Below, piece after piece: positions 1,932 through 63,769 of a stretch of 64,000 nt of DNA. Under the pieces are notes generated by a model. It made no database searches, was not told the origin of the DNA, and worked only from the letters and a program-made list of their open reading frames with translations. Position 1 is the stretch's first letter; each line of letters opens with the position of its first letter. This DNA comes from Hippopus hippopus. Taxonomy: Eukaryota; Mollusca; Bivalvia; Cardiida; Cardiidae. A program made the position numbers and the translations under genes. The stretch spans positions 12,442,777 through 12,506,776 of the forward strand of contig OX328106.1 in NCBI GenBank assembly GCA_946811185.2, in the 5' to 3' direction.

Positions 1932-2094
1932 ACAATCAGGTTCCTCCTGGCATGGACTTTTAATTTCGGTCTGGCAACCATACTCAGCTGCTTGGCTGAC
2001 AAATAGGCTCACCAGACTGTCTATCAAACCTGTGACCACTGGTCCACAGTTAAAGATATGGTCATAGACACCTTGCATGCTCTTTGATAAAGCT
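1932..2094 (-). CDS. Exon x38: B half of repeat 23 (4-Cys form)
   Basis: Phase 2 in, phase 0 out, 54 residues: ALSKSMQGVYDHIFNC, a hydrophobic helix, AAEYGC, then KSPCQEEPDC. B1 is missing, in step with A2 lost in x37. The donor TGT|GTAAGA gives phase 0 right after a Cys, unlike the phase 2 used elsewhere, so the protein may change architecture here. It is the last exon I can support; I saw no stop codon or further exon down to position 1. Confidence 0.83.
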
Positions 2095-2160
2095 CTATAA
2101 AAAATGTATGGTAACTCAATAACAGATTACAAAATGTTAATCCTTAATCTGCTAAATGAG

Positions 2161-2389
2161 TTAACTCTTTACCACACAATCCCGGGTTTTAACGACCCTA
2201 GGTGAGAAGGCTTTCGAAAACATTGTGGGAAAAGGAGAAAATGCTGGCAACCAGCATTTTCTCCTTTTCCAACAATGTTTTCTATCCTCTTTTAGACAAA
2301 TTCCAAAGTTTTGGTAAAGTTGAATTTGTAGTCTACAAATGCTTTCAATCTGGACAAGTCTAACCAATTGTCGTGTGGTAAAGAGTTAA
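2161..2389 (+). mobile_element. MITE-1 copy, full length with TTAA ends
   Basis: A 229-bp copy with TTAA at both ends. Left end TTAACTCTTTACCACACAAT, right end GTCGTGTGGTAAAGAGTTAA, near-perfect central palindrome. Lies 66 bp upstream of the x38 acceptor. Confidence 0.9.
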
Positions 2390-2577
2390 ATGAAACTTTC
2401 AAGGAGACAGTAAAAACTCCAAGGTTGCTATTTCAAGTTTTTTTTTCTTTTATTTTTAGAAAAATATCTTCTTATCAAACAGTGTAGATCCAAGATCAGA
2501 CTACACATAGTCTGATCTTGAACTACACTATCCACAAAAGGGTCAATGAGTCAAGGTTAGCAGCCTTGGGTTAACTT
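2390..2577 (+). mobile_element. MITE-2 copy
   Basis: Core inverted repeat (CAGTGTAGATCCAAGATCAG and its complement) at 2483-2532, followed by AGCAGCCTTGGGTTAA. It directly follows the MITE-1 copy ending at 2389. Confidence 0.7.
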
Positions 2578-2886
2578 GTCAGAAATGAAGCATTTGCACA
2601 CAAAAAATTGTTGTTTGAATGATAAGATTTGCATTCCATAGTGTGGAAAATGTTGTGGAAGAAGAAAAAAAAAAATTTTTGCTTACCAGCATTTACTTAT
2701 TTTCCCACAATATTTTCAAAAGTCTTTTTCATCAGGTTCATTGAAGCACAGGGTTGATAGAGTAAGGGTAAATCAATTATAAAGGAAGACTATCAAACAG
2801 AAAATGCCTACAACTTACCTAGTTTTAAACCCTAACACCTATTTGATTTATTTCACCACATTAGGGTTATGCAGTGATAAGTTAGT

Positions 2887-3113
2887 ATATCCCTTTACCA
2901 AACAATCCCTGGTTTTTAACGACCCTTAGATAGAAGCCTTTTGAAAACATTGTGGGAAAAGGAGAAAATGCTGGTAACCAGCATTTTCTCCTTTTCCTAC
3001 AATGCTTTCTACCCTGCCAGAAACAAATTTAAATTCTTGAGTTACGTTTATTTTGTCGTCTGCAAGTGCTTTCACTTTGGACCAGTCTAAATTTTGTCGT
3101 TTGGTAAAGAGAT
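2887..3113 (+). mobile_element. MITE-1 copy
   Basis: Both arms and a central palindrome of over 60 bp are present (AAAACATTGTGGGAAAAGGA and its complement); the TTAA ends are decayed. Confidence 0.85.
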
Positions 3114-3501
3114 ATACCAAATACTCTCTAAGATTCATTGAAAAAACAGTTTTTCAATCACTACATCACAATACTGGACCTGCACTAGAAATTCTTAGAC
3201 TTTGGTTTTACATTTTCTCATTTGACAAATCCTTTGACTTGTCATATTTGACAAATGAGATCATCTTGTTTTGATATGTTTTGTTGAATTTTTTGGATGA
3301 CCTCAACAAAACATCTCTAAAACAAAATGATCTAACAATGCTTTTCACAGCAATAAGGTTTTTGATCTCTCTTGTAAAATTTTCCAAAATGCATACAGAA
3401 AATTTTCCCAGTCACCCCCAAAAATGCTTTCAATATGGACCAATCTGAAATTTTGTCATCTGAAAAAAGGTCAAACAACAAAAGATATCTATTCCAGTTA
3501 C

Positions 3502-3801
3502 ATGCAGATTGCTTTCTTTCTCTTCTCTACAGGCAAGAAGGGATTTGGAGCCTTGTCTGCCAGCTGCCGTAACTGATACAGGGCCATATATGGATTGCAC
3601 TCATAGTCTCCTGTCACAATATTTCTGTCAATACACTCAGCAGGCTCTCCCATTGGCTCCTCTTCCAGATGTGTTCCAGTCGGGCAAATGTCAAGGGCAA
3701 GGCATTCAACCTCTCTGAATGTTGCTATGACAACATCTTGTGAGTCAAAGTCACAGGTAGCCAAAGTCATCCTCAGGCACTGTCTTGTGTACACAAGTTG
3801 A
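3502..3801 (-). CDS. Exon x37: B half of repeat 22, linker, A half of repeat 23
   Basis: Phase 2 in and out, 99 residues. The complete B half (QLVYTRQCLRMTLATC to REVEC) is followed by a linker with two Cys (DICPTGTHLEEEPMGEPAEC). The A half CNPYMALYQLRQLADK runs to KAIC and lacks A2. The donor is AT|GTAACT. Confidence 0.9.
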
Positions 3802-3831
3802 CTGTGTAACACAAAAAAAATGGAATTAAAC

Positions 3832-4192
3832 CTTAAAGATACATCTTTACTCCTTTTCAGCCAGTTTTTTAACCCATTTCATCTTTATTTCATCAACCTA
3901 TAATCATTCTTGTATCTTTATGCCATATGTTGCCCCTGACGGTTGCATGGTGGTAAAGATTATGACCAATAGAAAATGCATTTCATTCTCTTGGGGCCAT
4001 CAAAAGAAGCAATGTTGCCTTTTTCAGTTTAAATCAGAGACAAATCCTTTGAGTTTCTTTATCCTATATACCATATTTATCGATGATTTATTTATGTTTA
4101 CAAAGCTTATCAATATCTGAACCATTCTACACACTATAAAATTTTTACAGCGTTTTTTTTTTTCCTCTCTCTGGCTGTAAAGATGTATCCTT
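3832..4192. mobile_element. TIR element ending in TTAAAGATACATCTTTAC
   Basis: About 360 bp. Left TTAAAGATACATCTTTACTC and right GTAAAGATGTATCCTTAA are inverted. Internal parts match the 47448 copy (CATTCTTGTATCTTTATGCC). Confidence 0.75.
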
Positions 4193-4387
4193 AAAGCACA
4201 AAACAAACTCAATGTACATGTATATTCTAATATTAATACCCTTAAAAAGGTAGTGTAAGTACCGCTATTGTCAAGGATGTCTGAATAAGGCCCACAGTGT
4301 AGATCAAAGATCATACTGTACATTGTGTGCATTCTGATCTTAATCTTCACTGGCTGAAAATGATATTTATAGTAGGGAATAAAGATT

Positions 4388-4605: not shown

Positions 4606-4769
4606 GAGAACAAAGTGCAAATCAATTTTCCCCCCCCCCACAATTTGAATAGACTCACTTTGTTTAGGTCTAACAGTGCAATTTTTACTGCAAATGAATA
4701 TAATCTGGCCATGTTTAACATCTAAGAACAGACTGAACAATTGTGTATTCTAATCTTGATCTACCAACA

Positions 4770-5663: not shown

Positions 5664-5900
5664 CTGCAAACTTGTTCATTCTCCACACTTAAATAGTCAT
5701 GGGTGCTGACAGTCTGACCTAATCTCGATATACATGACATGGCTGTCTGTATTGAACACATACGTGGTTCATCTGTGCATATGTCCCCGGCAAATACCAT
5801 CATTTCTGCAAGCTGATAAGCCTCCCATAGGCGACCCCCAGCAGTTCCTCTCTTGCAGTCTGAACCAATGTTTTCTGCACATTCTAGTCTTCCCTCATAT
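5664..5900 (-). CDS. Exon x36: B half of repeat 21, A half of repeat 22
   Basis: Phase 2 in and out, 78 residues. The complete B half (YEGRLECAENIGSDC to FAGDIC) is joined by a very short linker (TDEPRM) to the complete A half CSIQTAMSC, ending NEQVC. This is one of the tightest linkers in the array and helps define the domain boundary. The donor is AG|GTAATG. Confidence 0.9.
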
Positions 5901-6186: not shown

Positions 6187-6415
6187 TTAACCCTTTACCA
6201 CAAAATCCCAACTTTTAACGACCCTGAAAAAGTAGCCTTTTGAAAACATTGTGGGAAAAAGAGAAAATGCTGGTAACCAGCATTTTCTCCTTTTCCCACA
6301 ATGTTTTCTACTCTTCCCAAAACAAACTTCCCTTTTTCTGTCACATTTATTTTGTCGTCTGCAAATGCTTTCAATTTGGACTAGTCTAAAATTTTGTCAT
6401 CTGGTAAAGAGTTAA
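6187..6415 (+). mobile_element. MITE-1 copy, full length with TTAA ends
   Basis: A 229-bp copy, TTAACCCTTTACCACAAAAT at the left and CTGGTAAAGAGTTAA at the right. A good family reference. Confidence 0.9.
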
Positions 6416-7114: not shown

Positions 7115-7310
7115 TGCATAGCTCAAATACAAACCGCACCTGGCAGGATTCGAACCCATGCGGACAAATATCCTCGTTTTTCGAGGTTTAAAAGACCAAC
7201 ACCATAACCACTGAGCTAAAGACAATTCTCCCTAACGCAGTTGTTAGGTATTTTGATTTTATACGGGAAAGCTATGCAGTAAGGAAAGAGTGATCTCCCG
7301 TAACAAGGTG
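7115..7310 (-). mobile_element. tRNA-Lys-like SINE
   Basis: The minus strand reads TAGCTCAGTGGTTATGGTGT (A box), CTTTTAA in the anticodon-loop position, and GGGTTCGAATCCTGCCAGG (B box). A tRNA-like head with an extra CTCGAAAAACGAG hairpin follows CTAACAACTG. Same family as 14430 and 14790. Confidence 0.75.
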
Positions 7311-7565: not shown

Positions 7566-7719
7566 TTTGCACAAAGATCCATTTTCCCTTGTTTAGAGAG
7601 GGCTAGTCCACTAGCAACAAGTTCTGTGTATTTAGCTATACATGATACATCTGATGCACTAACTGAACATTCTTCTTCTTCCTCTTCATCAGTATCTTCC
7701 ATATTCTCCCCTTCATTAT
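7566..7719 (-). CDS. Exon x35: Glu-rich linker and A half of repeat 21
   Basis: Phase 1 in, phase 2 out, 50 residues. NEGENMEDTDEEEEEEC is a short acidic linker with a run of six Glu coded by GAA/GAG triplets. A complete A half follows (CSVSASDVSC to KMDLC). The donor AA|GTAAGA leaves one residue after the Cys before the split codon. Confidence 0.88.
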
Positions 7720-8921: not shown

Positions 8922-9068
8922 CTGTACAGTAACTCATCACAACATGGGACAGAATACTGATTTGTTTGCTAAATAACTGTGGTCCTACAAATATGTCTCC
9001 TATCTGGTCCATGCAGGTTAGATACTCTCCGTAAATTGTACACACAGCTTTGTCAGTATTTGAAATAT
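8922..9068 (-). CDS. Exon x34: symmetric exon with an A-like half
   Basis: Phase 1 in and out, 48 residues: ISNTDKAVCTIYGEYLTCMD, then a helical stretch ending MSYCT. The cysteine pattern C-x8-C-x28-C resembles an A half, but the intron after it is phase 1. It is a skippable cassette: x33 joins x35 in frame without it. The acceptor is tctctttcag and the donor G|GTATGT. Confidence 0.84.
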
Positions 9069-9109
9069 CTGAAAGAGAAAAAGTGTGACTGTATTTCTAT
9101 AAAAAGTCT

Positions 9110-9339
9110 TTAACTCTTTTCCCAAACAACAATATTTTAGACAGGTCCAATTTGAAAGAACTTGCAGACAACAAAATTTATATGGCACAAGTGATGGGAT
9201 TTGAATCAGATAGTCCAGAAAACATTGTGGGAAAAGGAGAAAATGCTGGTTACCAGCATTTTCTCCTTTTCCCACAATGTTTTCAAAAGGCCTACTTCTC
9301 AAGGTCGTTGAAACTCTGGATTGTGTGGTAAAGGGTTAA
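9110..9339 (-). mobile_element. MITE-1 copy, reversed, TTAA ends
   Basis: A 230-bp copy with a near-perfect palindrome, about 40 nt upstream of the x34 acceptor. Confidence 0.88.
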
Positions 9340-10971: not shown

Positions 10972-11183
10972 CCATAATTCCATCAACCAAACCATCGACA
11001 CACGCGACAAAGCTATCCGTATATCCATCTGGTCTTCTCCAATCAATATCGACTGAGTCTAGGCAGTCACTGCTGTAACCATTGTCCATCAAGGACATTC
11101 TCAGCTGTGACATGAAGGACATATACTCAATACTTCCACAGCCATCCACATACTTCAAACATTGTTTAATAGATACCACAGTT
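10972..11183 (-). CDS. Exon x33: B half of repeat 20 plus extra segment
   Basis: Phase 2 in, phase 1 out, 70 residues. The complete B half TVVSIKQCLKYVDGC to YSSDC is followed by a segment (DSVDIDWRRPDGYTDS) and FVACVDGLVDGIMG. The phase-1 exit departs from the usual exit after Cys, and the next exon x34 is symmetric 1-1. A MITE-1 copy lies about 28 nt upstream of the acceptor. Confidence 0.88.
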
Positions 11184-12807: not shown

Positions 12808-13104
12808 CCACAAGTTCCTGAATCCAGCTCTGTCAAACCTTCAATGCATTTTTTAACACCCATAGTATCACACTCATTTACGACAGCACAGACGGGCAGC
12901 ATTCCCACAGTATAATTGTCTGGAAGTTCAAGCTTGTCAGGCAGGCTACATCCCAATCTATTTCCGGCCATGTAGATACTATCGAAGTCATAATTCTCCT
13001 CCATGGCAGTCTGAAGATCGGTGAGGAGTGGGCGAGCACATGTCTTTTCCATAAATCTACTCAAGGCGCAAGTCATAACTTGGTTCAACATCTCAACCAG
13101 TCCC
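12808..13104 (-). CDS. Exon x32: B half of repeat 19, A half of repeat 20
   Basis: Phase 2 in and out, 98 residues. The B half (GLVEMLNQVMTC, FMEKTC, then about 30 residues to NRLGC) is complete and slightly long. A neutral linker with an NYT sequon and a Cys-containing segment (VCAVVNEC) leads to the A half CDTMGVKKCIEGLTELDSGTC. The donor is GG|GTAAGG. Repeats 19 and 20 are both complete. Confidence 0.9.
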
Positions 13105-13644: not shown

Positions 13645-13821
13645 AAACATGGATCTTTGATGGACAGGTCTATTTCAGAAAAGTCTGTACTCTCCACACA
13701 TTCTGTCGCAATGGTTTCAAGGTCACATGACTCTATCTCAGCGTCTCCAGTTTCCTCCGTGTCTTCGGTCTCTGCAGGAAGTTGTCCCCAACATTGTAGG
13801 TCTTCTATAATCTCTGGACAT
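13645..13821 (-). CDS. Exon x31: end of repeat 18, acidic linker, A half of repeat 19
   Basis: Phase 2 in and out, 58 residues. CPEIIEDLQCWGQLP is followed by an acidic linker (ETEDTEETGDAEIE) and a complete A half (CDLETIATEC to KDPC). The donor TT|GTGAGT gives Leu at the junction. A MITE-1 copy begins about 24 nt upstream of the acceptor. Confidence 0.87.
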
Positions 13822-15326: not shown

Positions 15327-15425
15327 CTGTTTCTTACCAATGATGCATAGAATACAACCTCTGGTATCAATCCATCACATGTCAGCCCATAGTAGTTAAG
15401 ACACTGGACCATGTTTGCTACCACA
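15327..15425 (-). CDS. Exon x30: B half of repeat 18
   Basis: Phase 2 in and out, 32 residues: VVANMVQCLNYYGLTC, then a helical stretch ending SLVRN. B1 and B2 are present and B3 is the first Cys of x31 (RCPEII). The donor AG|GTAAGT is near consensus. It is shorter than any continuous frame that would be noticed by length alone. Confidence 0.85.
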
Positions 15426-16489: not shown

Positions 16490-17660
16490 ACGGCAGCGCG
16501 GGCCCTGAATCATCTGGTGGTCACTGTGACCTTGACCTTTCACAGATTAACCTTAAAATCTATAGGGATCATTTACACTCCGAGATGAATATCTGTACAG
16601 AATGTGAAGAACCTATGTCAATTCTGTGTCTAGTTATCATCTGGACAAGGTTTGGTCTATATATCATTAAGTTGAAGGCCACTGTGACCTTGACCTTTGA
16701 TGGATTAATCTCAAAATCAATAGGGATCATCTGCACTCCAAGACAAATGTCTGTGGCAAATTTGACGAATCTAGGTCAATTCTGTGTCTAGTTATCATCC
16801 AGACAATGTTTGGTCTATATATCAACATGTTGACGGTCACTGTGACCTTGACATTTGACCGATTGACCTCAAAATCAATAGGGATCATCTACACTCGGAG
16901 ACAAATGTCTGTGCCAAATTTGACGAACCTAGGTCACTTCTATGTCTAGTTATCATCCGGACAAGGTTTGGTCTATATATCAACATGTTGACGGTCACTG
17001 TGACCTTGACATTTGACCAATTGACCTCAAAATCAATAGGGATCATCTACACTCCAAGATGCATGTCTGTGCCAAATTTGACGAACCTAGGTTAATTCCG
17101 TGTCTAGTTATCATCCGGACAATGTTTGGTCTATATATCAACATGTTGACAGTCACTGTGACCTTGACATTTGACTGATTGACCTCAAAATCAATAGGGA
17201 TCATCTGCACTCCAAGACAAATGTCTGTGCCAAATTTGACAAACCTAGGTCAATTCTGTGTCTAGTTATCATCCGGACAAGGTTTAGTCTATATATCAAC
17301 ATGTTGACGGTCACTCTGACCTTGACCTTTAACCGATTGACCTCAAAATCAATAGGGATCATCTACACTCCAAGATGCATGTCTGTGCCAAATTTGACAA
17401 ACCTAGGTCACTTCTGTGTCTAGTTATCATCCGGACAATGTTTGGTCTATATATCAACATGTTGACAGTCACTGTGACCTTGACATTTGACCGATTGACC
17501 TCAAAATCAGTAGGGATCATCTACACTCCGAGACGCATGTCTGTGCCAAATTTGACGAACCTAGGGCAATTCTGTGTCTAGTTACCATGCGGACAAGGTA
17601 AGGTCTACCGACGGACGTGTGCAAAGCAATATACCCCCACTTCGTTGAAGGGGGGCATAA
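16490..17660 (+). repeat. 158-bp tandem array (about 7 copies) with pearl/Helitron-like end
   Basis: GTTATCATC recurs at 16633, 16791, 16949, 17107, 17264, 17423 and (GTTACCATG) 17581, a period of 157-159 bp. Each unit contains GGTCACTGTGACCTTGAC. The array ends with ACCGACGGACGTG and a hairpin ACCCCCACTTCGTTGAAGGGGG, resembling bivalve pearl elements. Confidence 0.87.
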
Positions 17661-17969: not shown

Positions 17970-18203
17970 CTGCAAACCATCTCATCGTCAATGGCAGCAG
18001 TTCTGAGGAACTGCGTGGAATCTCCCACACAGTATTCCACTCTGGTAAGGTCACATGACCCAGTCAGTTCCTCTGTCACAGTTAAACAAGTTGTTGATGT
18101 GAGGGCAGTGATCATCCTCTGCACAATCTGGATTGCCTTGGTTTGGTAAGAAGCACAGGAAACCGACAAGCTAGCTACAGAACTTGAAGCAGTTGATATA
18201 GTG
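17970..18203 (-). CDS. Exon x29: B half of repeat 17, A half of repeat 18
   Basis: Phase 2 in and out, 77 residues. The B half begins Ser/Ala-rich (TISTASSSVASLSVSC) with no B1, then a helix and LTSTTC. A short segment with one Cys (TEELTGSC) overlaps the A half CDLTRVEYC to DDEMVC. The open frame reads on into both introns for 200 residues, but the splice sites and phases define the exon. Confidence 0.88.
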
Positions 18204-20434: not shown

Positions 20435-20549
20435 CTGCATATGGAAGTTTTATCCTTGTAACTAGAGTAAGAGCTGGTGAATGACAGCATCATTGTCTCA
20501 CAGACTTCATAAACTAGTTCCAAATACTCACATTGGCTAGGTGTGTCAA
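20435..20549 (-). CDS. Exon x28: A half of repeat 17
   Basis: Phase 1 in, phase 2 out, 37 residues: DTPSQCEYLELVYEVC, then Ser/Tyr-rich residues to KTSIC. The second Cys sits nine residues after the first, slightly off the usual spacing. It is the first exon after the vWA domain and re-enters the repeat array. The donor is AG|GTAAAT. Confidence 0.85.
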
Positions 20550-22172: not shown

Positions 22173-22772
22173 TTCTACAGAACCACAAGAAAATCTTGGT
22201 GAAGATATCCTCCAGTTGATCAAAAGTGTCAATATTTAGAACATTCAAGTGGGTAGGTTCGCTAGCAATACCATTCACCTCAGCTCGAGCAGACTCTGAC
22301 TTCATATCGATTCCAACAGCAAACATGTGTATCCCCTGATCCTTTGAGATCCCAGCTTCAGTGATAGGGTTAGGACCCTCATTGGCCTCGCCATCTGTGA
22401 TCACAAGCATATGTTTTGGAACTCCTGGTCTTGCACCATTATCCTCTGAAAAGTAAGTTACTCTTGCTCTCTCTATCGCACCACCAGTATTCGTTCTGCC
22501 CTCTTGGTAAGGCATATTTTCAAGTACCTCTAACACTTTTGCCTTGTTCTGTACCAATTTGCCATCAATTTCTTCCAAGAAATCATTCATAAAGAACTGG
22601 TCCCACATAAATGTTGTGTATTGAAGAGCGCCAATTCTCACTGCACCGGTTTCTAACTCAGCTAGTTGGACCACATTTATGGCGAACTGTCGCATCTTCT
22701 CAAAGTTTTCAGCTCCCACACTCGCGGAACCATCAATAACTAAAACCATGTCAAGTTGTAACTGAGAACATT
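22173..22772 (-). CDS. Exon x27: von Willebrand factor A domain
   Basis: A single symmetric exon (phase 1 in and out), 199 residues. The vWA fold begins LDMVLVIDGSASVG, which holds the MIDAS DxSxS motif. GRTNTGGAI supplies the MIDAS Thr and MLVITDGEANEG the MIDAS Asp. All metal-coordinating residues are intact, so divalent-cation-dependent ligand binding is plausible. It starts with ECSQ and ends WFCRSK, giving a Cys at each edge that may pair. Similar vWA modules occur in matrilins, collagens and mollusc matrix proteins. Confidence 0.94.
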
Positions 22773-24328: not shown

Positions 24329-24594
24329 CTTCTTTAACTTCTTCTTCATTGATTGCAGTATTTTCACAAACTTCACTCAGCTCGTCAATGATGCCTTCAA
24401 GATTGGATGATGCATATAAGTCAAGGAGAGGTGGTTTTTCTACTTCAGTAAGGTTGGCCTTTAATTCAGTGATATAATTGCAGACATCTTCGTTAAAGTT
24501 GAGAGACCCTATCAGTGACTGTTGAACCTTCAAGACAAACTCAGAGTAGAAGCTGGTGATACTTGAAAACTCATCAACAAGGAAAATCTCTGCC
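24329..24594 (-). CDS. Exon x26: divergent repeat segment and acidic linker before vWA
   Basis: Phase 2 in, phase 1 out, 88 residues. AEIFLVDEFSSITSFYSEFV begins a helical stretch with few cysteines (EDVC and SEVC), then the linker NEEEVKE. The donor AAGAAG|GTACAT at 24327-24328 is moderate, but it alone joins in frame to the vWA exon. If it is not used, the frame continues to a TGA at 24273-24275, just before another donor-like GGTATG. An alternative short product ending before vWA is therefore possible. Confidence 0.75.
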
Positions 24595-25685: not shown

Positions 25686-25850
25686 CTAAGTTGATCAAAG
25701 TCAGTTGTGATCTCCTGGCCGTCTGGGCAGGCAAGGACAGATAAATCCAAATGCCTTTGCACTTTCAGAAAAATCCCACTTCTCTCTATAGAGTTACATC
25801 CCTTGGTGTAGGAAATACAGCACTGTTTAAAGGCTTCATACATGGCATCA
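25686..25850 (-). CDS. Exon x25: B half of repeat 16
   Basis: Phase 2 in and out, 54 residues: DAMYEAFKQCCISYTKGC, a helix, then SVLAC and a short linker ending FDQLR. B1 is doubled (CC). Together with x24 it gives a clean six-Cys repeat plus one. It ends without an A half, so the intron here is not after a Cys. Confidence 0.88.
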
Positions 25851-27393: not shown

Positions 27394-27621
27394 CTGCATT
27401 CACTGGCATCAGCTGGAACTCTCCATGTTTTAGACTCAATACATTCCGTAATTGCCAAGTCTATCTCGCACACATCATTGCTATCTTCCGGTATTACACA
27501 ATAACCAGTCAACTGATCCGTAGCAAAGTCGAATGAGGCAGAGATCGGCCCCAGGTCCTCTGCAGGGCAAATGTCTTCATCCAAAACAAGATCTATTGCT
27601 GTAGATGTGGCCTCATAATGA
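27394..27621 (-). CDS. Exon x24: degenerate B half of repeat 15, A half of repeat 16
   Basis: Phase 2 in and out, 75 residues. The first part (HYEATSTAIDLVLDEDIC) keeps one Cys and appears to be a shortened B half. A linker (PAEDLGPISASFDFATDQ) with one Cys leads to a complete A half (CEIDLAITEC to DASEC). A MITE-1 copy starts 17 nt upstream of its acceptor. Confidence 0.88.
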
Positions 27622-29238: not shown

Positions 29239-29457
29239 CTGCAAACAGACATCTTGTCTGCATATTTATTCCGCATGATGTAAGCCAGAGACAGGATAGA
29301 TGAGGTCCCACACAGAGGGTCCCCAAACTCTGTAACACATTCTCCGACTTGGAAAATCTCAATGATTCCAAGACAAACAGTGTAGAGTTGGTGATAGTTG
29401 TAAGACTTGCAGCCAATCGTGTGCTCCATTACGCAGTCAAGTTTAGCCTGGATTGCT
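29239..29457 (-). CDS. Exon x23: B half of repeat 14, A half of repeat 15
   Basis: Phase 2 in and out, 72 residues. The B half (AIQAKLDCVMEHTIGCKS) has an extra internal Cys (LYTVCLG) and closes at QVGEC. The A half that follows (GDPLCGTSSILSLAYIM to KMSVC) lacks A2. The acceptor has a T-rich tract and the donor is AG|GTAAGC. Confidence 0.88.
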
Positions 29458-36772: not shown

Positions 36773-36973
36773 TTGAAGTCCAGTAACATTTTTGCCTTGG
36801 TAACAAAGTTATTAAGACACGCTTCTACATCAACATCATCATCATCAGGTCTCAGACACACAGTAGATGAAATAATCCGAACATTTGTTAACATTCTCTT
36901 TAACACAAGCTGTCTGTCAATATCACACTCTATGTTGGCTTTGTGGATGCACACCTTAGTCTCCTCAGCTAGC
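36773..36973 (-). CDS. Exon x18: B half of repeat 12, degenerate A half
   Basis: Phase 2 in and out, 66 residues. A complete B half (LAEETKVCIHKANIEC to SSTVC) is followed by the short linker LRPDDDDVDVE. The A half has kept only one Cys (EACLNNFVTKAKMLLDFK). The exon ends LDFK without the A3 Cys, and the next exon opens with the long acidic region, so repeat 13 looks broken here. Confidence 0.88.
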
Positions 36974-37125: not shown

Positions 37126-37356
37126 TTAATTCTTTACCAAACAACAAATTTTTTTTAGACTTGTTCATATAGAAAGCATTTGCAGGTGACAAAATAAATG
37201 TGACCCAAAACTTGAAAGTTGTTTTGGGAAGGGCTGAAAACATTGTGGGAAAAGGAGAAAATGCTGGTTACCAGCATTTTCTCCTTTTCCCACAATGTTT
37301 TCAAAAGCTTTCTTTCTCAGGGTCATTAAAAGTCAAAATTGTGTGGTTAAGGATTA
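37126..37356 (-). mobile_element. MITE-1 copy, reversed, TTAA ends
   Basis: A 231-bp copy with a near-perfect palindrome, followed at once by a second, diverged forward copy to about 37560. Confidence 0.87.
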
Positions 37357-37667
37357 ACCCCAACATTTAACAACCCTGAGAAAAAAAGTTTCTGACAACA
37401 TTGTGGGAAAATGCTGGTTTCCAACAGTTTCTCCTTTTGATCACAATGTTTTATTTACCTAATGAAAGACATATTTCATCACTTTAGTCACAATTAATTT
37501 GTTGTCTACAAATGCCTTCAGTTTGGACAAGGCTAAACTTTTGTCTTCAGGTAAAGACTTACGGTCACAAGATCCCATCAAAATCACTTTTACAAGCAAT
37601 ATTGAGACGGGATTCTTTATAAAGAAGTTCACCCAAAAGACACATGACATATTACTTAGATAACAAG

Positions 37668-37935
37668 AGCACTGCATGCGGGTGCCAATGCTCAGCTGCA
37701 AGTGCTTGATTTTTAGTGAAAATTGTAAGTCAAAAAAGGGGCATATCTGTGTCAAAAATATTTTGATGCTTACCTGTCACAGTTGTATGAGTTCCGCTTT
37801 TGATAGTTAACAACTTGTCCAAGTTTGATGATGATTTCATAGACGCTGCCGACAACGACGCTGCCGACAACGATGGCTGGGCTATGACAATAACTTGTTT
37901 TCTTAAAACTTTTTGCAATTGTTTGGCATGCTGAA
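37668..37935 (+). mobile_element. Non-autonomous repeat, copy 2
   Basis: ACAAGAGCACTGCATGCGGG start and the GATAGTTAACAACTTGTCCA segment; contains a short direct repeat (CGACGCTGCCGACAACGA twice). Confidence 0.68.
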
Positions 37936-38203: not shown

Positions 38204-38437
38204 CGGCAGATGTAATCTTCTCCTTTCATAATGCTTGTCTTCAGTTTTTCAACACAAGTAGACGCCATTTCCACATCACATCTCTCTGGCTCAATGATGA
38301 CAGGGCACCAGATGTCCTTGCATCGACCTTCAAACTGTTCCAGTGATTTTTCCATCAATGGATTGAGAAGTCCCTTAAACTCTCGATCACAGGAAGATGT
38401 GTAATCCAGATAGCATTTGACAGCATATCGAAGAGAT
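38204..38437 (-). CDS. Exon x17: B half of repeat 11, A half of repeat 12
   Basis: Phase 2 in and out, 77 residues; a reference exon for the repeat. The B half reads SLRYAVKCYLDYTSSC, about 24 residues, then FEGRC. A short segment (KDIWCPVIIEPER, one extra Cys) leads to the A half CDVEMASTCVEKLKTSIMK, ending YIC. The split codon after YIC becomes Arg, as in several other repeats. Confidence 0.92.
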
Positions 38438-39954: not shown

Positions 39955-40227
39955 ACACAAAATCTGTCTTCAGTACTATATTCTGCAAAAACTTCTCTCT
40001 CCAAATCAGTGAGACACATCAATGCTTTATCAGCTCTGCACATGCCATCAGATGGTCTCCGATCATATTCCACACAAGAAGGCGTGTCCGAAAGATCCAC
40101 CATCTCTTTGCATACTTTATCTACCAAGGCATATATTCCAATCCATGTATGCTCTATTTGTTTTTGTATGGTCTCGGAACAGTTGGTTATATGAGCCTTC
40201 ACAGCAACTTCTATGATGTGGACTGAC
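39955..40227 (-). CDS. Exon x16: B half of repeat 10, A half of repeat 11
   Basis: Phase 2 in and out, 90 residues. The B half (VKAHITNCSETIQKQIEH to VDKVC) lacks B1, in step with A2 lost in x15. A short linker with one extra Cys (TPSCVEYDRRPSDGMC) leads to a complete A half (CRADKALMC to EDRFC). The donor is GT|GTAAGT. Confidence 0.88.
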
Positions 40228-40599: not shown

Positions 40600-40776
40600 C
40601 GGCAAACTTTCTCTCTGAGTCCATCATCATTTTGACATTCTGACAAGGCTAACGACAGTTGAGAGATCAGTTCCATGGCCCTGTCAGGCATACAATCTGT
40701 CGCAGGATCTGGGTCCGGGGTGGGTTCAGGATCCTCGGGCCAAACAGGCTCCTCGGGTTCTTCACAGACATCTATA
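40600..40776 (-). CDS. Exon x15: end of repeat 9, Pro/Glu/Asp linker, A half of repeat 10
   Basis: Phase 2 in and out, 58 residues. It starts IDVC (last Cys of repeat 9), then has a stiff acidic linker with Pro at nearly every second or third position (EEPEEPVWPEDPEPTPDPDP). The A half of repeat 10 follows (CMPDRAMELISQLSLAL to REKVC). The canonical A2 is missing and one Cys is displaced (SECQND). The donor is CG|GTAAGA. Confidence 0.88.
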
Positions 40777-43089: not shown

Positions 43090-44130
43090 GTAAGTTGTGA
43101 TGCTTCCTCACCACATTTAGTAATGAAAGTCAGTGCTGACAATCATTTGACTCATTTGGCTGTACATAACTATGTGTGCAGTATATGAATGTCAGTATTG
43201 ATAATCTTTTGCCATATTAAGTAATGTCAGTGCTGACATTGTTTTGCCACATAAAGTGCATGAATGTCAGTGCTGACAATCTCTTACCACATTAAGTACA
43301 TGAATGTCAGTGCTGACAATCTTTTACCACACTAAGTACATTGTATGTCAGTGCTGACAATCCCTTGCCACATTAAGTACATGAATGTCAGTGTTGACAA
43401 TCTTTTGCCATATTAAGTACATGAATATCAGAGCTGACATCTTTGCCACATTAAATACATGAATGTCAATGCTGACAATCTTATACCACATTCAGTACAT
43501 GAATATCTCTGCTGAAGTCCCCTGCCACATTCAGTTGTACATAACTATGTGTGTAGCGTATGAATTTCAGTGTTGCAGCATGAATGTCAGTGCTGGCAAG
43601 CATTTACCAAATTTAGTACATGAATATTTGTCTTGTGGTTCCCCCTGTCACATTCAGAACATGAATTTAAAGGTTAACAATCTTTTGCCACATTAGGATC
43701 ATGAATTGATAGATTGACAATCTTTTTGCCACATTCAGAGCATGAATTTAAAGGTTAACAATCTTTTGCCACATTCAGAATGTAATTTAAAGGTTGACAA
43801 TCTTTTGCCACATTCAGAACAGGAAGTTAAAGGTTAACAATCTTTTGCCACATTCAGAGCATAAATTTAGAGGTTGATAATCTTTTGCCACTTTCAGAAC
43901 AGGAAGTTAAAGGTTAACAATCTTTTGCCACATTCAGAGAATGAATTTAAAGGTTGACAATCTTTTTGCCACATTCAGAACATGAATTTTAAGGTTGACA
44001 ATCTTTTTGCCACATTCAGAATATGAATTTTAAGGTTGACAATCTTTTTGCCACATTCAGAATATGAATTTTAAGGTTGACAATCTTTTGCCACATTCAG
44101 AACATAAATTTCAGCACTGATGGTTTGCTG
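43090..44130 (+). repeat. 40-bp minisatellite, two sub-blocks
   Basis: The unit ATGAATGTCAGTGCTGACAA plus TCTCTTACCACATTAAGTAC is 40 bp and repeats about 25 times. In the first half the middle is GTCAGTGCTGAC; after about 43640 it becomes TTTAAAGGTTGACA. Intronic, between x13 and x14. Confidence 0.85.
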
Positions 44131-44291: not shown

Positions 44292-44406
44292 TTGGTTGTA
44301 CAAAGGTCAGTTTTTTCCGCATCTGGCATTAATGGGCTTGTAACATACAACATTCCATAGCTCAATACACAATGAGTAGCAAGTCCAATATTACAGCCGG
44401 CTGTCA
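44292..44406 (-). CDS. Exon x13: A half of repeat 9
   Basis: Phase 1 in, phase 2 out, 37 residues from TAGCNIGLATHCVLSYGM to KTDLCTT. It is a complete A half (C-x7-C-x22-C). The donor AA|GTGGGT is weak but in frame, and its last residues extend two beyond the Cys. A (GACA)n-like tract (44220-44275) lies just downstream in the intron. Confidence 0.75.
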
Positions 44407-49234: not shown

Positions 49235-49391
49235 CTGGGCAGTCCTCTGTCATATTTTTAGCCCATTCAAGGACATCTTTGAGAAGCTCCGTCTCTAACA
49301 GGTAGCTGTCTAAACCATTGAGACAGGTGTAAAAAGTTCTTGAGGCATTGCAAAAAGCTTGAACTTGGGAGGAATTGAACAAAAGGGTAAC
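49235..49391 (-). CDS. Exon x11: B half of repeat 8
   Basis: Phase 0 in, phase 1 out, 52 residues. VTLLFNSSQVQAFCNASRTF continues to YTC and about 25 helical residues, then TEDC. The B half is complete with its three cysteines. NSS, NAS and NMT sequons are present. The phase-1 exit leads into the 30-nt cassette x12, or directly to x13 if that cassette is skipped. Confidence 0.85.
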
Positions 49392-49509: not shown

Positions 49510-50612
49510 CAAAATACAGGATAACAAGACCGGCAAATTGTCACAAGATACGCCCGTCCCACCGCCAGTTGTCGAGGGGGGATAATAATCGTAAAGGGCA
49601 GGTAGAGGAAAATAGTAGGGCAGCAGAAATCATGTGATTGAAATAGGTATGAATGTCTCCTCTAATGTTAAGGAAACATGCATATAAAGTTTCAGGTGAA
49701 AAGACAAAGTTATATTGTAGAGATCGAAGCATGAAAAGCTGTAAAAAAAAAATAATGATTACGGAATAATTCCAGAAGGGCACTAGGTAAGGTTACGCCT
49801 CTAGTGCATTGCACTTTTCGTAACTGCAACAAACATGTTTACCAAGTCTTAAGTCAATTTGACTTGAGGTGACAAAGTTCCATTCCGGACAAGCAAGAAA
49901 TACTGTAAAAATGAAGATCAAAGTAGAATTACTCAAAATCCGCGCTAGGTAGAGTTATTGTTCTTGCGCACTGTACTCCATAATATTGCAACAAACATGC
50001 ATACCAAGTTTGAAGTCGTTCTGACTTGAGATGACAAAGTTATATTCCGGACAAGCACTAAATGCTGTAAAAATGACGATCAAAGGGAAATAACTCAAAG
50101 ACAGCACAAGGTAGAGTTACAATTCTTGTGCACTGCACTTCCAAATATTGCAACAAATAAGCATACCATATTTCAAGTCATTCCTACTTAAGATGACAAA
50201 GTTATGCTCCGGACAAGCAAGAAATGCTATAAAATGAAGATCAAAGGGGGAATAACTCAAAATTTGTGCTAGGAAGAGTTATGGTTCTTGTGCACTGCAC
50301 TTCGTAATTTTTCAACAATCATCCATACCAAATTTGAAGATGTTCAGACTATAGATGACAAAGTTATATTCCGGACAAGCAGAAAATGCTGTAAAAATGA
50401 CGATCAAAGGGAAATAACTCAAAGACAGTATGAGGTAGAGTTATGGTTTTTTTCACACTGCACTCCGTATTATTGCAATAAACACAAATGCCAAGTTTCA
50501 AGTCAATCGGACTGGAGATGACAAAGTTATGCTCCGGACAAAGAACTGGACGCTGCCCGCCAGTACGCCATGGGTGATCCCATAATACGTCCCGTCTTCG
50601 ATGGGCGTATAA
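49510..50612 (+). mobile_element. Pearl/Helitron-like element with about 165-bp tandem repeats
   Basis: Begins ATAACAAGACCGGCAAATTG and ends with a hairpin TACGTCCCGTCTTCGATGGGCG followed by TATAAAAA. In between, GACAAAGTTATATTCCGGAC recurs roughly every 152-172 bp about five times. No coding capacity. Confidence 0.77.
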
Positions 50613-51824: not shown

Positions 51825-52005
51825 CTCTTCCATGAAAGTTCTCACACAGACTTGCCATGGTGTACTCTCAAGCTCTATGGTTGGTGATAAATTGCAACTG
51901 TAAAATTCTATTCCTTTGAAGAAAGCATACTCTGGTACTGTTGCCAGTGGACTAGAGCATCCATAATATAATGAGGATATTTCTGGCATTTTGTCAGCAG
52001 CATTT
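51825..52005 (-). CDS. Exon x10: B half of repeat 7, A half of repeat 8
   Basis: Phase 2 in, but phase 0 out, 60 residues ending FMEE. The B half lacks B1 (SSLYYGC first), in step with the missing A2 of x9. The following A half (CNLSPTIELESTPWQVC) has no third cysteine, and the intron falls after Glu rather than after Cys. The (GA)n microsatellite at 51775-51818 lies just beyond the donor. This is the one repeat where the intron phase departs from the array rule. Confidence 0.82.
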
Positions 52006-52525: not shown

Positions 52526-52714
52526 TCGCAAATTAGGGTTTGATTGGACTCTGTGTTGGAATCTTGAATGAAGGTAGCAGAATCATCTACAGCTTGATAA
52601 GGCGTACAAGTTGCGTTACAATTCGTAAGGTTGGCCAGATATTGCTGTTTCTGATCACTATCTGGGCAGTTCTTCACATAGCAGTTGACACACTCATATT
52701 GTTTTTTCCTTTTC
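52526..52714 (-). CDS. Exon x9: B half of repeat 6 with extra Cys, A half of repeat 7
   Basis: Phase 2 in and out, 62 residues. The N-terminal KRKKQYECVNCYVKNC is basic and has one cysteine more than the usual B half. NLT, NAT and NQT sequons follow, so this segment is probably glycosylated. The A half runs from NATCTPYQA to TLIC and lacks a canonical A2. The acceptor has a T-rich tract and the donor is GA|GTAAGA. A dibasic KRKK at the exon start could be a processing site; that is speculative. Confidence 0.85.
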
Positions 52715-53660: not shown

Positions 53661-54028
53661 CAATGTAATTTCTAGTTTTTTCCTGACCTTGCCGCCCAAA
53701 TATGCCAACAAAATTGTAATTGTAAAATCTGCATTAAATGAGATATTTTGAGTCAAATCAGTATTACAGTGTTAATTTTATCCCTTGTTGCTTCAATGAC
53801 AAAGTTGAAGCCATCAGGTATATTTAAGTTCTTTTCATTCTGTCAATACTGATTTAAAAGGAGAAAATACTGGATACCAGCAATTTCTCATACCACAATG
53901 TTTTCTCCTTTTCCAAAAAAGCTTTTTCAAAAATGTTTTCAAGTGTTTTTCTTCAGGGTTGTTAAGACATAGGATTGTTTGACAGGGGGTTATTCAATCC
54001 CAAAATCCTTTTTGAAGAGCAAACTCAC

Positions 54029-54286
54029 ATGCACTTTTCCTCCTCTGAATCCGTGTCGTTAATCTGGTTCTCATCTTCACAGACCTGTGCTTGTGCAAAA
54101 TCACAGTCTGCAGCAGAATCGCCTCGTGTTGCAGCACAAATTTTCTCATCTAAGTCAATGTCGCAATACATGGAGCCTTTTACCATTCGCAGCACCTTTA
54201 AAACTCCATCTGCAATAGCTTTACGCTCGTCCTCCGTGCAGGTTGTCATTAGTGCATCTAGACATTCAAAACCAGTAGCAATATGC
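54029..54286 (-). CDS. Exon x8: B half of repeat 5, A half of repeat 6
   Basis: Phase 2 in and out, 85 residues. A complete B half (HIATGFECLDALMTTC, then about 24 residues and C) is followed by a short linker with an extra Cys (EKICAATRGDSAADC). A complete A half follows (CDFAQAQVC to EEEKC). An NDT sequon is present. The donor AT|GTGAGT gives Met at the junction with x9. Repeat 5 is one of the clean six-cysteine copies. Confidence 0.9.
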
Positions 54287-54409
54287 CTGAAAATATTGAA
54301 GAACTCATATAATTAATTTTAGTCTTTTTTGGACATATTTAGTTCAACATTACAGTATGGACCTATGCCAGACACACCAAATAATGATGAAGATCACACA
54401 AAATAAAAC

Positions 54410-57082: not shown

Positions 57083-57376
57083 ACACACTCCCTTTCTGCA
57101 CCATTGGTTCTGAAGTATGGTATCACAGGTCCTAAGCATTTCTTCCAATTACAGCTCATCTCTTCCTCCTCTCCTCCTTCCTGTTCCTCACCTTCCTCTC
57201 CTCCTTCTTGCTCGCCTTCCTCTTCTCCCTCTGTCCCCATGTCTGTGACTGGTTCCCCACAAACATGAAGTCTTAAGGAATCAAAAGAGCTGGATACCTT
57301 CTCAATACGGTCACTGATAGCTTCTGAACATGATTCTTTGACTGTTACAAACATGTCATCCATTGGTCCATTTTCA
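57083..57376 (-). CDS. Exon x7: B half of repeat 4, Glu/Gly linker, A half of repeat 5
   Basis: Phase 2 in and out, 97 residues. The B half (VTVKESCSEAISDRIEK to LRLHVC) lacks its first Cys, matching the missing A2 in x6. A roughly 35-residue low-complexity linker follows, made of GEEEGEQEGG-type units. Then comes a compact A half, C-x4-C-x16-C. The linker unit is partly repeated in the DNA (cctcctctcctccttcc), so length variation is expected. Confidence 0.88.
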
Positions 57377-58002: not shown

Positions 58003-58123
58003 CTGCAGTACATCATGGAGTCATCTGAATGGTAAAATGGGAGTATCATAGCTTTTAAAACAGCTTTATCCACAGTGTCCCTGACATTCATGTACATACA
58101 GGCCTCATCGGGTTCCGTCATTT
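58003..58123 (-). CDS. Exon x6: A half of repeat 4 (4-Cys form)
   Basis: Phase 1 in, phase 2 out, 39 residues starting MTEPDEACMYMNVRD and ending DSMMYC. The first and third A cysteines are kept and the middle one is lost. The donor AG|GTTAAG is weaker than average but in the expected place directly after the last Cys. It joins LU domain 1 back to the repeat array. Confidence 0.8.
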
Positions 58124-59556: not shown

Positions 59557-59791
59557 CATCATCTGTACCCTCTCCATCAGTATCTCCCTCCCCGTCTGTC
59601 TCATTTCCATTTGTTTCCGTCTTGTCCAGTTGGAGAGGCTGGTTACAGTGACTACTCTCACAGAAATATTCATAGTGCATTCTTGTCTTGGTAAATGTCC
59701 ATTTATCCTTGCTGTAGCTGGATGCAGGATTTTGACAGCCTTTAGTTACTCTGTAACCGTCAGCCATCACTTCCACTCTAGACATGCAGTG
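59557..59791 (-). CDS. Exon x5: second half of LU domain 1 plus acidic linker
   Basis: Phase 0 in, phase 1 out, 78 residues. It opens with HCMSRVEVMADGYRVTKGC and closes the LU fold with EYFCESSHCN; the terminal Cys-Asn is the family signature. One cysteine of the usual adjacent CC pair is absent (FC instead of CC), so one canonical disulfide may be missing. A Thr/Gly/Glu/Asp linker (NETDGEGDTDGEGTDD) ends the exon. Confidence 0.85.
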
Positions 59792-60298: not shown

Positions 60299-60390
60299 CA
60301 TTTCACTAAAAGAACAAACTTCTGTTTCATTACAAGCATTGTTGTCCATTTCATCTTCACAAATGTAACATTCCAGAGGTGAACTTCTCT
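60299..60390 (-). CDS. Exon x4: first half of LU (Ly-6/uPAR) domain 1
   Basis: Phase 1 in, phase 0 out, 30 residues. LECYICEDEMDNNAC followed by NETEVC is the typical start of a Ly-6/uPAR domain (CxxC, then two further cysteines). The donor ATG|GTGAGT is strong. LU domains are three-finger folds in secreted or GPI-anchored proteins. This one is bracketed by phase-1 introns with an internal phase-0 intron, the same layout as LU domain 2. Confidence 0.85.
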
Positions 60391-61005: not shown

Positions 61006-61006
61006 A

Positions 61007-61233: not shown

Positions 61234-61301
61234 CTGTATTTCTACACCTTGAAAAAGTCTACTCAAGCTATTTGGCGGTAAAGCAAATAAATTTCACAAA
61301 C

Positions 61302-61693
61302 CTCCTTCCATAGTAAAATTGTCACAAAGATATTCCTGTACTGCATCTGCTACTTTAAGCATCCTAGAAACATATGCTTTAGCCTGAAGGTTTGGAATCT
61401 TATAGATGCAACTCTTCAAATATTCGGAAGCGCCACACATGTCATCGAGCTGTCCATACGGCAAAAATTTGTCGACCAATCCGCCAACAAATGTATATCG
61501 ATAGTTCATTAAACACTGCAACACTGGCATTAATGTATTGCTAGACAAGTCAACTAGTTGAATGTCACATGTAATTGAGGATTTGTTCAAAGCTTCCAGA
61601 TGCTCCATCAGGACCTCATGTAACTCTGCCATTTGGAACAAGTTACAATCTTTTGTCATAGAACTTGTACAGTTCAGGTATTCAACCAGGTCT
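61302..61693 (-). CDS. Exon x3: B half of repeat 2 plus intronless repeat 3
   Basis: Phase 2 in, phase 1 out, 130 residues; the second-longest repeat-coding exon. It starts with a complete B half (DLVEYLNCTSSMTKDC, about 24 residues, then C). A second pair of A- and B-like halves follows without the usual intron (VLQC, DDMC, then C-x7-C-x24-C). NCT, NKS and NFT sequons are present. The phase-1 exit leads into LU domain 1. The missing intron suggests intron loss or an older repeat copy. Confidence 0.88.
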
Positions 61694-61950
61694 CTGTAAA
61701 AGGAAAACATCAGATTCACAACTTCCTATTGAAAGTAATCACTTCTTTTTAACCCTTTACACTAGAAAGTATCTGAAAACATTGTGGGAAAAGTAGAAAT
61801 GCTGCTGGCCAGTACTTTCTCCTTTTCCCACAATTTATTTTACACTTTTCAAGACCAGTGTAATTACTTGATCCACATTTAAGTTGTTGGATGGGCTGAA
61901 GTCTTGAAGGTGTGGGATATGCAATCAAGAGGACCAAGTTTAAATACTCA

Positions 61951-62174
61951 CTTAGCCATTACCAAACAATCCCCAGTTTTGACGACCCTAATGAAGAAAG
62001 CTTTTTAAAACATTGTAGGAAAAGGAGAAAATGCTGGTAACCAGCATTTTCTCCTTTTCCTACAAGTGTTTTACCCTACGAAAGGCAAACCCCTCCATTT
62101 GGGTCACATTTATTTTGTAATTTGCTAAAGCTTTCAATTTTGATAACAATAAAATTTTGTTGTTTGGCAAAGGG
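61951..62174 (+). mobile_element. MITE-1 copy
   Basis: Forward copy with strong palindrome; ends decayed. A shorter degraded copy lies at about 61750-61860. Confidence 0.8.
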
Positions 62175-62279
62175 AAGGGATAAAAGACTGTTTTTTTGGT
62201 GGGTATGCCCTTGGAAAAGACACTTCAGTGCCTTAGTGCACTTCATGCTTACAGGAGCTAAAAATAAAAGGTCACTTAC

Positions 62280-62558
62280 TGGCAATCATAGGACTCTGTA
62301 ATATTTGGCAGCATGCACATTTCTTGTATTTCTTCATAAGATGTGCACATCATCTCTTTTTCTTCTTCTTCTTCTTCTTCTTCATCATCTTTATCACCCT
62401 GGTCTATGTCACCCGTGTCTGATCCTTCCATTTCACACACTGTCCGATCAAAGTCCAATGTCTTTTCAGCCTCAGCGGTGATTTCTTCCACTTTTTCACT
62501 TATCTTGCACTCTTTTAAAAGCTCTTCTGCCTTAGTCCAGTATTCTTTCTGCAACAAT
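62280..62558 (-). CDS. Exon x2: B half of repeat 1, Glu tract, A half of repeat 2
   Basis: Phase 2 in and out, 92 residues. A helical B half (KAEELLKECKISEKVEE) has only the second and third B cysteines, matching the missing A2 in x1. Next comes a strongly acidic linker (GDIDQGDKDD, then eight Glu in a row coded by a GAA/GAG microsatellite). The A half of repeat 2 follows: C-x9-C-x10-C, with an NIT glycosylation sequon. The donor is CA|GTAAGT. The Glu tract is likely length-polymorphic. Confidence 0.88.
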
Positions 62559-62584
62559 CTGTTCAAAGAATATATAATATTCTT

Positions 62585-62813
62585 TTAAGTCTTTGCCAAA
62601 CGACAAAATTTTAGACTTTCCTGTATTCAAAGCACCTGCAGACAAAAATTTAAAAGTTACTCAAAACCTTAAATTTTTATTTCAAAGGGTAGTAAACATT
62701 GTAGGTAAAGGAGAAAATGCTGATTACCAGCATTTTCATCTATTCTCACAATATTTTCTAAAGCCTTCTCTCTCAAGGTCTTTAAAACTTGGGACTGTGT
62801 GGTAAAGAGTTAA
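62585..62813 (-). mobile_element. MITE-1 copy near the x2 acceptor
   Basis: A 229-bp reversed copy with TTAA at both ends, starting about 25 nt upstream of the x2 acceptor. Confidence 0.85.
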
Positions 62814-63022
62814 ACCTCACACTAAGTATTCTATTCAACTTCAAAGTACCTTCAGAAAGCAGTTGACTGACACTCTGTCCATTGGAATATTAAATAGCTC
62901 AATGAAATTTTGTGATATAAACCTGTTTCAGTTCCTTTATGCCATTTGCTAAACTGTTTTCAAAGATTTCTTCCTCAGGATGGTACAAACAAAGGCTTGC
63001 ATTGAAAATGGTAGACATCTTC

Positions 63023-63222
63023 ATAACCCTTCACCTGATAAATAAGTTAATTAAAACTTTCATGCTGATAGTAAAAACACAAATATTGCAATTTTGGGGG
63101 AAATATATCTCCTTATCGGACAGCGTAGATCCAAGATCAGACTGCACGTTCTGTGCAGTCTGATCTTGATCTACACTGTCTGCAAAAGGTCCTTGGTCGT
63201 GCTTAGCAGCATAAGAGTCAAT
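63023..63222 (+). mobile_element. MITE-2 copy
   Basis: Starts TAACCCTTCACCTGATAAAT, hairpin with arms of about 28 bp at 63118-63180, ends TTAGCAGCATAAGAGTCAA. Confidence 0.8.
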
Positions 63223-63424
63223 ATAACACACAGCACTTTCTCCTGTTTCAAAAAAAAAAAATTTCCAAAGCTTCCTTCCTACTGGTCATAAAAGCCTTCA
63301 TGGTAAAGAGTGAAGCATCTGCCTCGTGTAAACATTGTTTTACCACTATGTCCTCCTTTTCCAACAATGTTTTTAAAATTCCTTTTTCTTTCAGATCATA
63401 TACTACTAACCAGAGGGTTGTTCG

Positions 63425-63638
63425 GTTAACTCTTTCACTATCAAGTAAATGATTTACACTTTTTCATTGGCTATAAATATAGTTCCCCTGCAAGATGAAT
63501 AGACAGTTTGGCGTTAATCTAAAATAAAGTAGTGGACAGTGTAGATCAGAGATCAGACTGCACGTTCTGTGCAGTCTGATCTTGATCTGCACTGTCCACA
63601 ACAGCCTCTGGTGTCATAAACAGTAAGGAAAGAGTTAA
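63425..63638 (+). mobile_element. MITE-2-like copy with TTAA ends
   Basis: TTAACTCTTTCACTATCAAG to AGTAAGGAAAGAGTTAA; perfect hairpin (GGACAGTGTAGATCAGAGAT arm) at about 63534-63598, just downstream of x1 in the transcript. Confidence 0.8.
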
Positions 63639-63660
63639 TGGTTATATCTAATGCTTATAC

Positions 63661-63769
63661 CTGCACTTAAGGTTGTCTGGGAGATATGTCAACAATGGTT
63701 TGATGACATCTACAATAAAGGTGTTCAGTTTGTGCTGCACTGTAGAACAGTTAGATTCTAACTCTGTAA
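63661..63769 (-). CDS. Exon x1: A half of repeat 1 (4-Cys form)
   Basis: First exon of the gene inside the window, phase 1 in and phase 2 out. It encodes 35 whole residues beginning TELESNCSTV and ending NLKC. Only the first and third A-half cysteines are present; the middle one is replaced. The donor falls in the codon after the last Cys (AG|GTATAAG) and completes Arg with x2. An acceptor with a pyrimidine tract (tatatttcag) precedes it. Upstream exons lie outside the window. Confidence 0.8.

Follow-up and report, generated by a model that had tools for sequence, protein, structure and literature searches.

A long tandem array of cysteine-rich repeats in Hippopus hippopus, probably one mosaic gene, with a repeat loop that may accept inserted domains

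Exon shuffling is usually pictured as phase-1 modules set side by side. Among Cys-rich proteins, the GLG1 (ESL-1) repeat consists of tandem units with a C-x7-C step, and the T20D4.11-like domain (DUF19) is a Cys-rich secreted domain. Here we describe a tandem-repeat mosaic of Cys-rich exons, mixed with LU and vWA domains, on the minus strand of a 64,000-nucleotide stretch of the bivalve Hippopus hippopus (contig OX328106.1, positions 12442777-12506776, part of a 34-contig assembly with 1.07 Gb of sequence). We call this whole stretch the window. It is known that proteins can gain domains through insertion into symmetrical-phase introns (PMC2926785), and the accessible part of PMC6003135 describes WAP (perlwapin), Kunitz, vWA, and acidic proteins in the abalone shell matrix. 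From what the accessible part of PMC6262176 says of SCREPs, the one thing they have in common with our locus is the notion of Cys-rich units in tandem.

Window coordinates are used throughout; since the array lies on the minus strand, values above 64000 are upstream of the window and negative values are downstream. We write x>y for an exon that begins in phase x and ends in phase y. From 63763 to 1932, we curated 36 exons, all on the minus strand (7592 nt), which read as 2530 aa with 157 Cys (6.2%) and without any stop. Their open frames and AG/GT borders hold by construction. Asp and Glu accounted for 18.9% of the residues and Lys and Arg for 7.9%; the introns had a median of 1505 bases, and the longest one had 4828. 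By our reading, the exons in the window carry 22 A-type and 21 B-type repeat halves, close to the about 23 two-half copies of the original prediction, which had been made from the letters of the window. It had also placed 38 exons in one frame. The exon chain that we computed over 184 kb (the window flanked by 80 kb on its upstream side and 40 kb on its downstream side) gave 38 exons inside the window as well, but we hold three of them to be doubtful (63035-63242, 37774-37860, and 7140-7210), and the chain missed 63661-63763, which we added to the curated set.

We consider it fairly likely that the array represents one very large minus-strand gene, extending past both ends of the window and encoding a secreted mosaic scaffold with an insertion-tolerant loop in its repeat. 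It would probably be one animal gene with a span of more than 100 kb. A motif exon finder, which accepted only candidates with splice sites, an A or B cysteine motif, and any of three allowed phase classes, retrieved 24 non-overlapping clusters on the minus strand of the window and none on the plus strand at score 10 (26 vs. 3 at score 8), and with 60 dinucleotide-shuffled versions of the minus strand it retrieved 0-4 clusters. When candidate exons with at least three Cys were collected free of the motif, the minus strand was richer in every one of the nine phase classes, with 2-15 clusters vs. 0-2 on the plus strand. The 184-kb chain reached a score of 1412 with 77 exons on the minus strand vs. 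a score of 14 with 5 exons on the plus strand, a gap that is inflated by a codon model with 19 of its 30 training exons inside the window. Using leave-one-out profiles, 14 of the 23 units outscored every plus-strand frame and one tied; for unit 57083, an overlapping frame was the one counted. Moreover, three frames of the minus strand that had not been used for training beat all the plus frames (E values of 1.7e-6, 0.015, and 0.026 vs. 0.29 for the best plus frame), and the best of them reads as a full unit at 104196-104429.

The array is real within the span of 1932 to 63769 proposed for it by the original prediction, yet it continues past both ends, where WAP and Kunitz modules as well as P/T-rich and acidic stretches join it. 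Units on the same strand reach about +125 kb on one side and about -18 kb on the other, and the window coordinates truncate a longer array, with some 40 A-type halves in total by our reading. The outermost array exons may lie in other genes. Concerning the modules, the vWA exon (22173-22772, 1>1, also in the chain) matched Pfam PF00092 with 127.9 bits (cut-off 23.8) over profile positions 1-173 of 174 and an E value of 6.3e-37. The spliced LU pair at 60299-60390 (1>0) and 59557-59791 (0>1) passed the cut-offs of both UPAR_LY6 (PF00021, 26.9 vs. 24.8) and Toxin_TOLIP (PF00087, 34.1 vs. 21.2). Thus, vWA and one LU domain, both of which the original prediction had seen mixed into the array, pass Pfam cut-offs inside the window. 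A second pair, LU-like, at 32712-32797 (1>0, weak acceptor) and 31877-32006 (0>1), covered nearly the whole profile length of PF00087 but stayed below its cut-off when spliced (14.8 vs. 21.2). Out of the window, the LU pair 82523+80556 passed PF00087 (23.0 vs. 21.2) but only reached 18.3 vs. 24.8 for PF00021. There are three WAP domains (PF00095) at 76020, 72613, and -3760 (32.5, 38.5, and 29.8 bits vs. 20.8), and one Kunitz domain (PF00014) at 64856 (53 bits vs. 21). VWD exons near -27 kb were above the Pfam cut-off as well and may be part of a neighbouring gene.

Other parts of the longer array were observed in passing. Large Asp/Glu/Ser-rich exons are found at 86181-86969 and 114986-115723. 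The exon from -3155 to -2323 holds a mucin-like P/T repeat of the KTPTEKTPSTGTA type between A and A' halves, and its other strand reads as a W/C-rich repeat. Finally, the exon 136873-136992 matched Pacifastin_I (28.1 bits vs. a cut-off of 27.9); this Pacifastin-like exon near +136.9 kb may be part of another gene.

The original prediction did not consider the intron phases, which hint at how the mosaic was built. Exons with a whole A+B unit mostly begin and end in phase 2 in the chain; where the halves are split between exons, both the end of the A exon and the start of the B exon are in phase 1, and the intron falls between Cys3 and Cys4. The 35 junctions of the curated window chain comprise 23 in phase 2, nine in phase 1, and three in phase 0. 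This layout, with phase-2 introns mostly at the unit borders and a phase-1 intron in the Cys3-Cys4 loop, is what is new here. In the versions that we chose, every placed module (vWA, Kunitz, the three WAP, and the three pairs that are LU or LU-like) has phase 1 at both of its ends. They occupy seven sites in 184 kb, three of them inside the window: LU 82523/80556, WAP 76020+72613, Kunitz 64856, LU 60299/59557, LU-like 32712/31877, vWA 22173, and WAP -3760. These sites were taken from the 184-kb chain, with Kunitz and exon 63661 set by hand. The exon following the module was 1>2 at all seven sites and a clear B half at three (79806, 30640, and 20435). The exon preceding it, ending in phase 1, was a full three-Cys A half at four sites (86181, 61302, 34490, and -3155) and a two-Cys A-like half at two (76457 and 24329). 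In other copies, the Cys3-Cys4 stretch bears Glu-, Asp- or Pro-rich runs (57083, 62280, 40600, and 7566). Phase-1 exon-shuffled extracellular mosaics resemble this locus in having LU, vWA, WAP, and Kunitz modules on phase-1-bounded exons, here in one long frame. However, the core repeat here has mostly phase-2 borders, and on our reading the modules sit within split units rather than between domains.

At the structural level, we modelled two A+B units (both 2>2 exons of the chain) with AlphaFold2. For the first one (38204-38437, 18 sequences), helices were predicted at residues 2-13, 18-33, and 55-71, with a best predicted local distance difference test (pLDDT) of 79.0 and a predicted template modelling score (pTM) of 0.65. 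For the second one (39955-40227, 19 sequences), they were predicted at 2-13, 18-38, and 65-80, plus a short one at 86-89 (best pLDDT 79.8, pTM 0.69). The prediction is then of three main helices per unit, two from A and one from B, in agreement with the small helical bundles proposed originally. Their packing as a small bundle is our reading of the models, and disulfides probably brace the unit. In both models, the confidence was lowest between the second and the third helix, which corresponds to the Cys3-Cys4 loop, and the position of the module sites at phase-1 loop introns agrees with this low-confidence loop. Foldseek and VIA-align searches with the unit models gave no credible solved fold among the matches listed.

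We propose that the core of the protein would be a tandem array of A+B units, each with three helices in a small bundle pinned by disulfides, where the Cys3-Cys4 stretch would be a loop of free length. Phase-2 unit borders would leave whole units open to tandem duplication, while the phase-1 loop intron would allow LU, vWA, WAP, and Kunitz modules with phase-1 bounds to be inserted with the frame intact; in other copies, acidic or Pro-rich runs would fill the loop instead. The most likely job would be in extracellular structure and adhesion, as a long string of braced beads showing binding modules and acidic runs. The more specific proposal, namely a new extracellular family of disulfide-braced three-helix bundles with the helix2-helix3 loop as an insertion port and a dual-phase layout that led to a scaffold of about 40 units displaying LU, vWA, WAP, and Kunitz domains, is quite possible, though we stop somewhat short of calling it probable. 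The two intron phases appear to share the work, one copying the repeat and the other placing foreign domains within it. Should this hold, the locus would be a natural case of a repeat domain that has evolved into a chassis for inserted domains; it would add a new extracellular domain for annotation, with loops of interest for display engineering. In domain-based annotation, all that would be visible of such a giant secreted protein is a scatter of LU, vWA, WAP, and Kunitz domains.

Regarding function, secretion is suggested by the modules together with the Cys content. The vWA exon retains D-x-S-x-S plus a later T and D, which we take to be the residues of the metal-binding adhesion site. In the Kunitz exon, there is an Asp at the position where canonical trypsin inhibitors presumably have a basic residue, and this suggests a structural use of the module. 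Matches of the vWA exon in the PDB include collagen VI, proximal thread matrix protein 1 (6.2e-21), and integrin alpha-L. A matrix role is plausible given that WAP, Kunitz, vWA, and acidic proteins are found in the abalone shell matrix, in the accessible part of PMC6003135. Molluscan matrix proteins with vWA and acidic regions (proximal thread matrix protein 1, or the Pif/BMSP type) resemble our locus in a related vWA, in acidic runs, and in the presence of WAP and Kunitz in the same matrix, whereas our core repeat is not among the features that the accessible part of that source gives for them (PMC6003135). A protein of the shell matrix or otherwise associated with biominerals, rather than a scaffold of mucus, cuticle or adhesive, would fit this company, the strongly acidic composition, and the Asp-rich runs. 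The vWA shell proteins in the accessible part of that source also bear chitin-binding domains, and none was found among the exons that we scanned, which are a subset of all. We regard the biomineral role as possible but doubtful, at around one chance in four.

For the single gene with modules in its repeat loop, several results pull in the other direction. Some splice borders are weak, notably at 63661, 58003, 32712, 25686, 5664, and 1932, and there is no convincing start exon, the one signal-peptide-like candidate (131801-131886) lying outside the chain. The acceptor of the Kunitz exon was too weak for the 184-kb chain (score -2.9), and only a weak candidate exon (66956) precedes it. The exon after the module is B only by position at four of the seven sites (69836, 63661, 58003, and -6073), and when exons were picked with no phase rule, the vWA exon came out shorter, as 1>0 with an early end. 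The phase agreement of the chain and of the curated set, including the in-phase position of the exons after modules, is partly by construction. A chance placement of the modules is not favoured, although the chain enforces phase agreement and only three of the seven following exons have a clear B. As to the repeat, the other units are only 11-26% identical to the first one, eight of the 23 held-out units failed to beat the plus-strand background, and A and B showed no profile similarity to each other in HHalign. The pLDDT over the five structure models spread from 59.4 to 79.0 for the 38204 unit and from 68.9 to 79.8 for the 39955 unit.

These doubts bear on whether the exons could instead belong to several tandemly duplicated neighbouring genes for secreted proteins on one strand. 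The links at 51825-49235 and at 1932 are weak, and the introns reach the length given above. The 35 of 35 compatible junctions of the curated chain are no test since the chain was chosen for phase compatibility. We also applied a held-out phase test, with a codon model trained on 15 out-of-window exons and exons picked free of any phase rule. At the loosest cut (14), it retrieved 30 minus-strand exons but no plus-strand ones, and phase compatibility held for 24 of 29 neighbours, which argues for one gene; order shuffles gave a mean of 14.3, and only one of 2000 was as high as 24. At cut 18, 19 of 23 neighbours were compatible, a value that three of 2000 shuffles reached. The two strictest cuts, 22 and 26, at which linking exons were lost, gave results (13/19 and 9/16, reached by 366 and 1283 of 2000 shuffles) that were no different from shuffles and leave room for separate genes. 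Nevertheless, A and B halves are on separate exons with modules between them, and such exons cannot stand alone. We judge several neighbouring genes to be unlikely, a reading to which we would give a little over one chance in five, and keep the single gene as the better description of the locus.

The core repeat is unnamed in the databases searched. Half A is mostly C-x7-C-x22-30-C and half B mostly C-x7-C-x10-22-C, and among the halves listed, 7 was the most frequent first Cys spacing for A (18 of 30) as well as for B (14 of 26). In Pfam, 18 unit sequences gave only scattered matches to eight unrelated families, one member each, with E values of 0.029-3.7, and four further exons (one overlapping a unit of the 18) gave no credible match of the repeat. 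A PDB profile search of the unit returned a single row with nothing credible (E value of 0.42). The literature gave no name for the repeat in the titles and abstract openings listed, with subscription literature mostly uncovered, so it may have been described. These results are in line with the original prediction, which found no named family and took the likeness to DUF19 as superficial; its interpretation is supported, and its caution was right.

It is improbable in our view that the unit descends, with much divergence, from a Cys-rich helical repeat already known, such as GLG1 (PF00839) or T20D4.11/DUF19 (PF01579). Half A has the C-x7-C step of the GLG1 repeat, the units are likewise tandem, Cys-rich, and apparently helical, and the copy at 29239 also reads as C-x7-C-x11-C-L-x10-C. 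In Cys number and spacing, however, all but that one of the copies compared by eye differ from the GLG1 pattern. The unit is Cys-rich and probably secreted, as T20D4.11-like domains are. Neither PF00839 nor PF01579 matched at E values up to 10 among the 18 units and further exons, in searches where the HMMER filters drop most weak matches.

Besides, we tried A and B as duplicates of one half, and this was not supported (HHalign probability of about 3% over 7 columns). A second A class (A') was observed at 34490, 49235, 8922, 86181, and -3155, always on exons ending in phase 1, and in several A' halves an aromatic residue stands a little ahead of Cys2. The longer exons 61302 and 108374 read as A-B'-A'.

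Homologue searches found few relatives. The word-based search, which is blind to distant relatives, gave no candidate with one unit as the query, and with the longest repeat exon it gave only one of the two proteins that the 18-unit alignment had retrieved at E values up to 1. Both proteins, P0001 and P0002, are close relatives of single exons and come from short frames, the contigs that carry them measuring 3.9 and 4.1 Mb. P0001 was identical to 61297-61725 at 93 of 121 positions (77%) with six of six aligned Cys kept, and P0002 to 54028-54312 at 76 of 92 (83%) with seven of seven. Judging from these alignments, they are probably orthologues of single exons; complete Cys retention at such identities is only mildly unexpected by itself. 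A decayed array, in which a pseudogene or relic had kept open frames by chance, would account for the divergent copies, the missing Cys in several of them, and some weak splice sites, but the excess of motif exons over shuffles and these two Cys-keeping relatives on other contigs make it very improbable.

The remaining curated exons follow the same scheme. Whole A+B units, all 2>2, are found at 62280-62558 with an acidic linker (motif finder, chain, and phase-free pick), at 57083-57376 with a long Glu-rich linker (chain and phase-free pick), and at 54029-54286, the relative of P0002 (chain). Both the motif finder and the chain retrieved those at 36773-36973, with a short B, 29239-29457, 27394-27621, 17970-18203, 12808-13104, and 3502-3801. 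The unit at 5664-5900 has a weak acceptor and came from the motif finder and a profile match; the chain chose 5664-5805 (1>2) instead. The A+B'+A' exon that is related to P0001 spans 61302-61693 (2>1, chain).

Exons with a B half alone are mostly 1>2. Two of them are B by position, with two Cys: 63661-63763, set by hand after the out-of-window Kunitz exon, and 58003-58123, with a weak donor (chain and phase-free pick). The others are 44292-44406 (chain), 30640-30730 after the LU-like pair, 20435-20549 after the vWA exon, and 7566-7719 with an acidic lead, the last three from both the motif finder and the chain. Two B halves are 2>2 and were in the chain and the phase-free pick: 40600-40776, with a Pro/Glu-rich lead, and 13645-13821, with an acidic lead.

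A halves, all of them in the chain, include the A' halves at 49235-49391 (0>1), 34490-34860 (2>1, after an Asp/Ser-rich run), and 8922-9068 (1>1). There are A halves at 15327-15425 (2>2) and 10972-11183 (2>1, also from the motif finder), a two-Cys A-type half at 24329-24594 (2>1) before the vWA exon, and an A-type exon with a weak acceptor at 25686-25850 (2>2). The A-type exon at 1932-2094 (2>0) has uncertain borders, and the chain chose 1932-1995. Two Cys-rich exons were not classed as A or B: 52526-52714 (2>2, chain and phase-free pick), with no credible Pfam match, and 51825-52005 (2>0, chain). As a candidate LU pair, these two were rejected, with no LU match in Pfam.

Finally, the introns hold repeats of their own. 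Tandem arrays were observed at 16519-17607 (158-bp unit, 6.9 copies, 90% matches), at 49825-50541 (162-bp unit, 4.4 copies), and at 43180-44114 (40-bp unit, 23.4 copies), the last ending about 180 bases from the B exon 44292-44406. A dispersed repeat that translates to ENIVGKGENAGYQHFLLFPQCF or near it is present in many introns and on both strands, for example at 6195-6380 (minus), 9089-9331 (plus), and 37173-37370 (plus).

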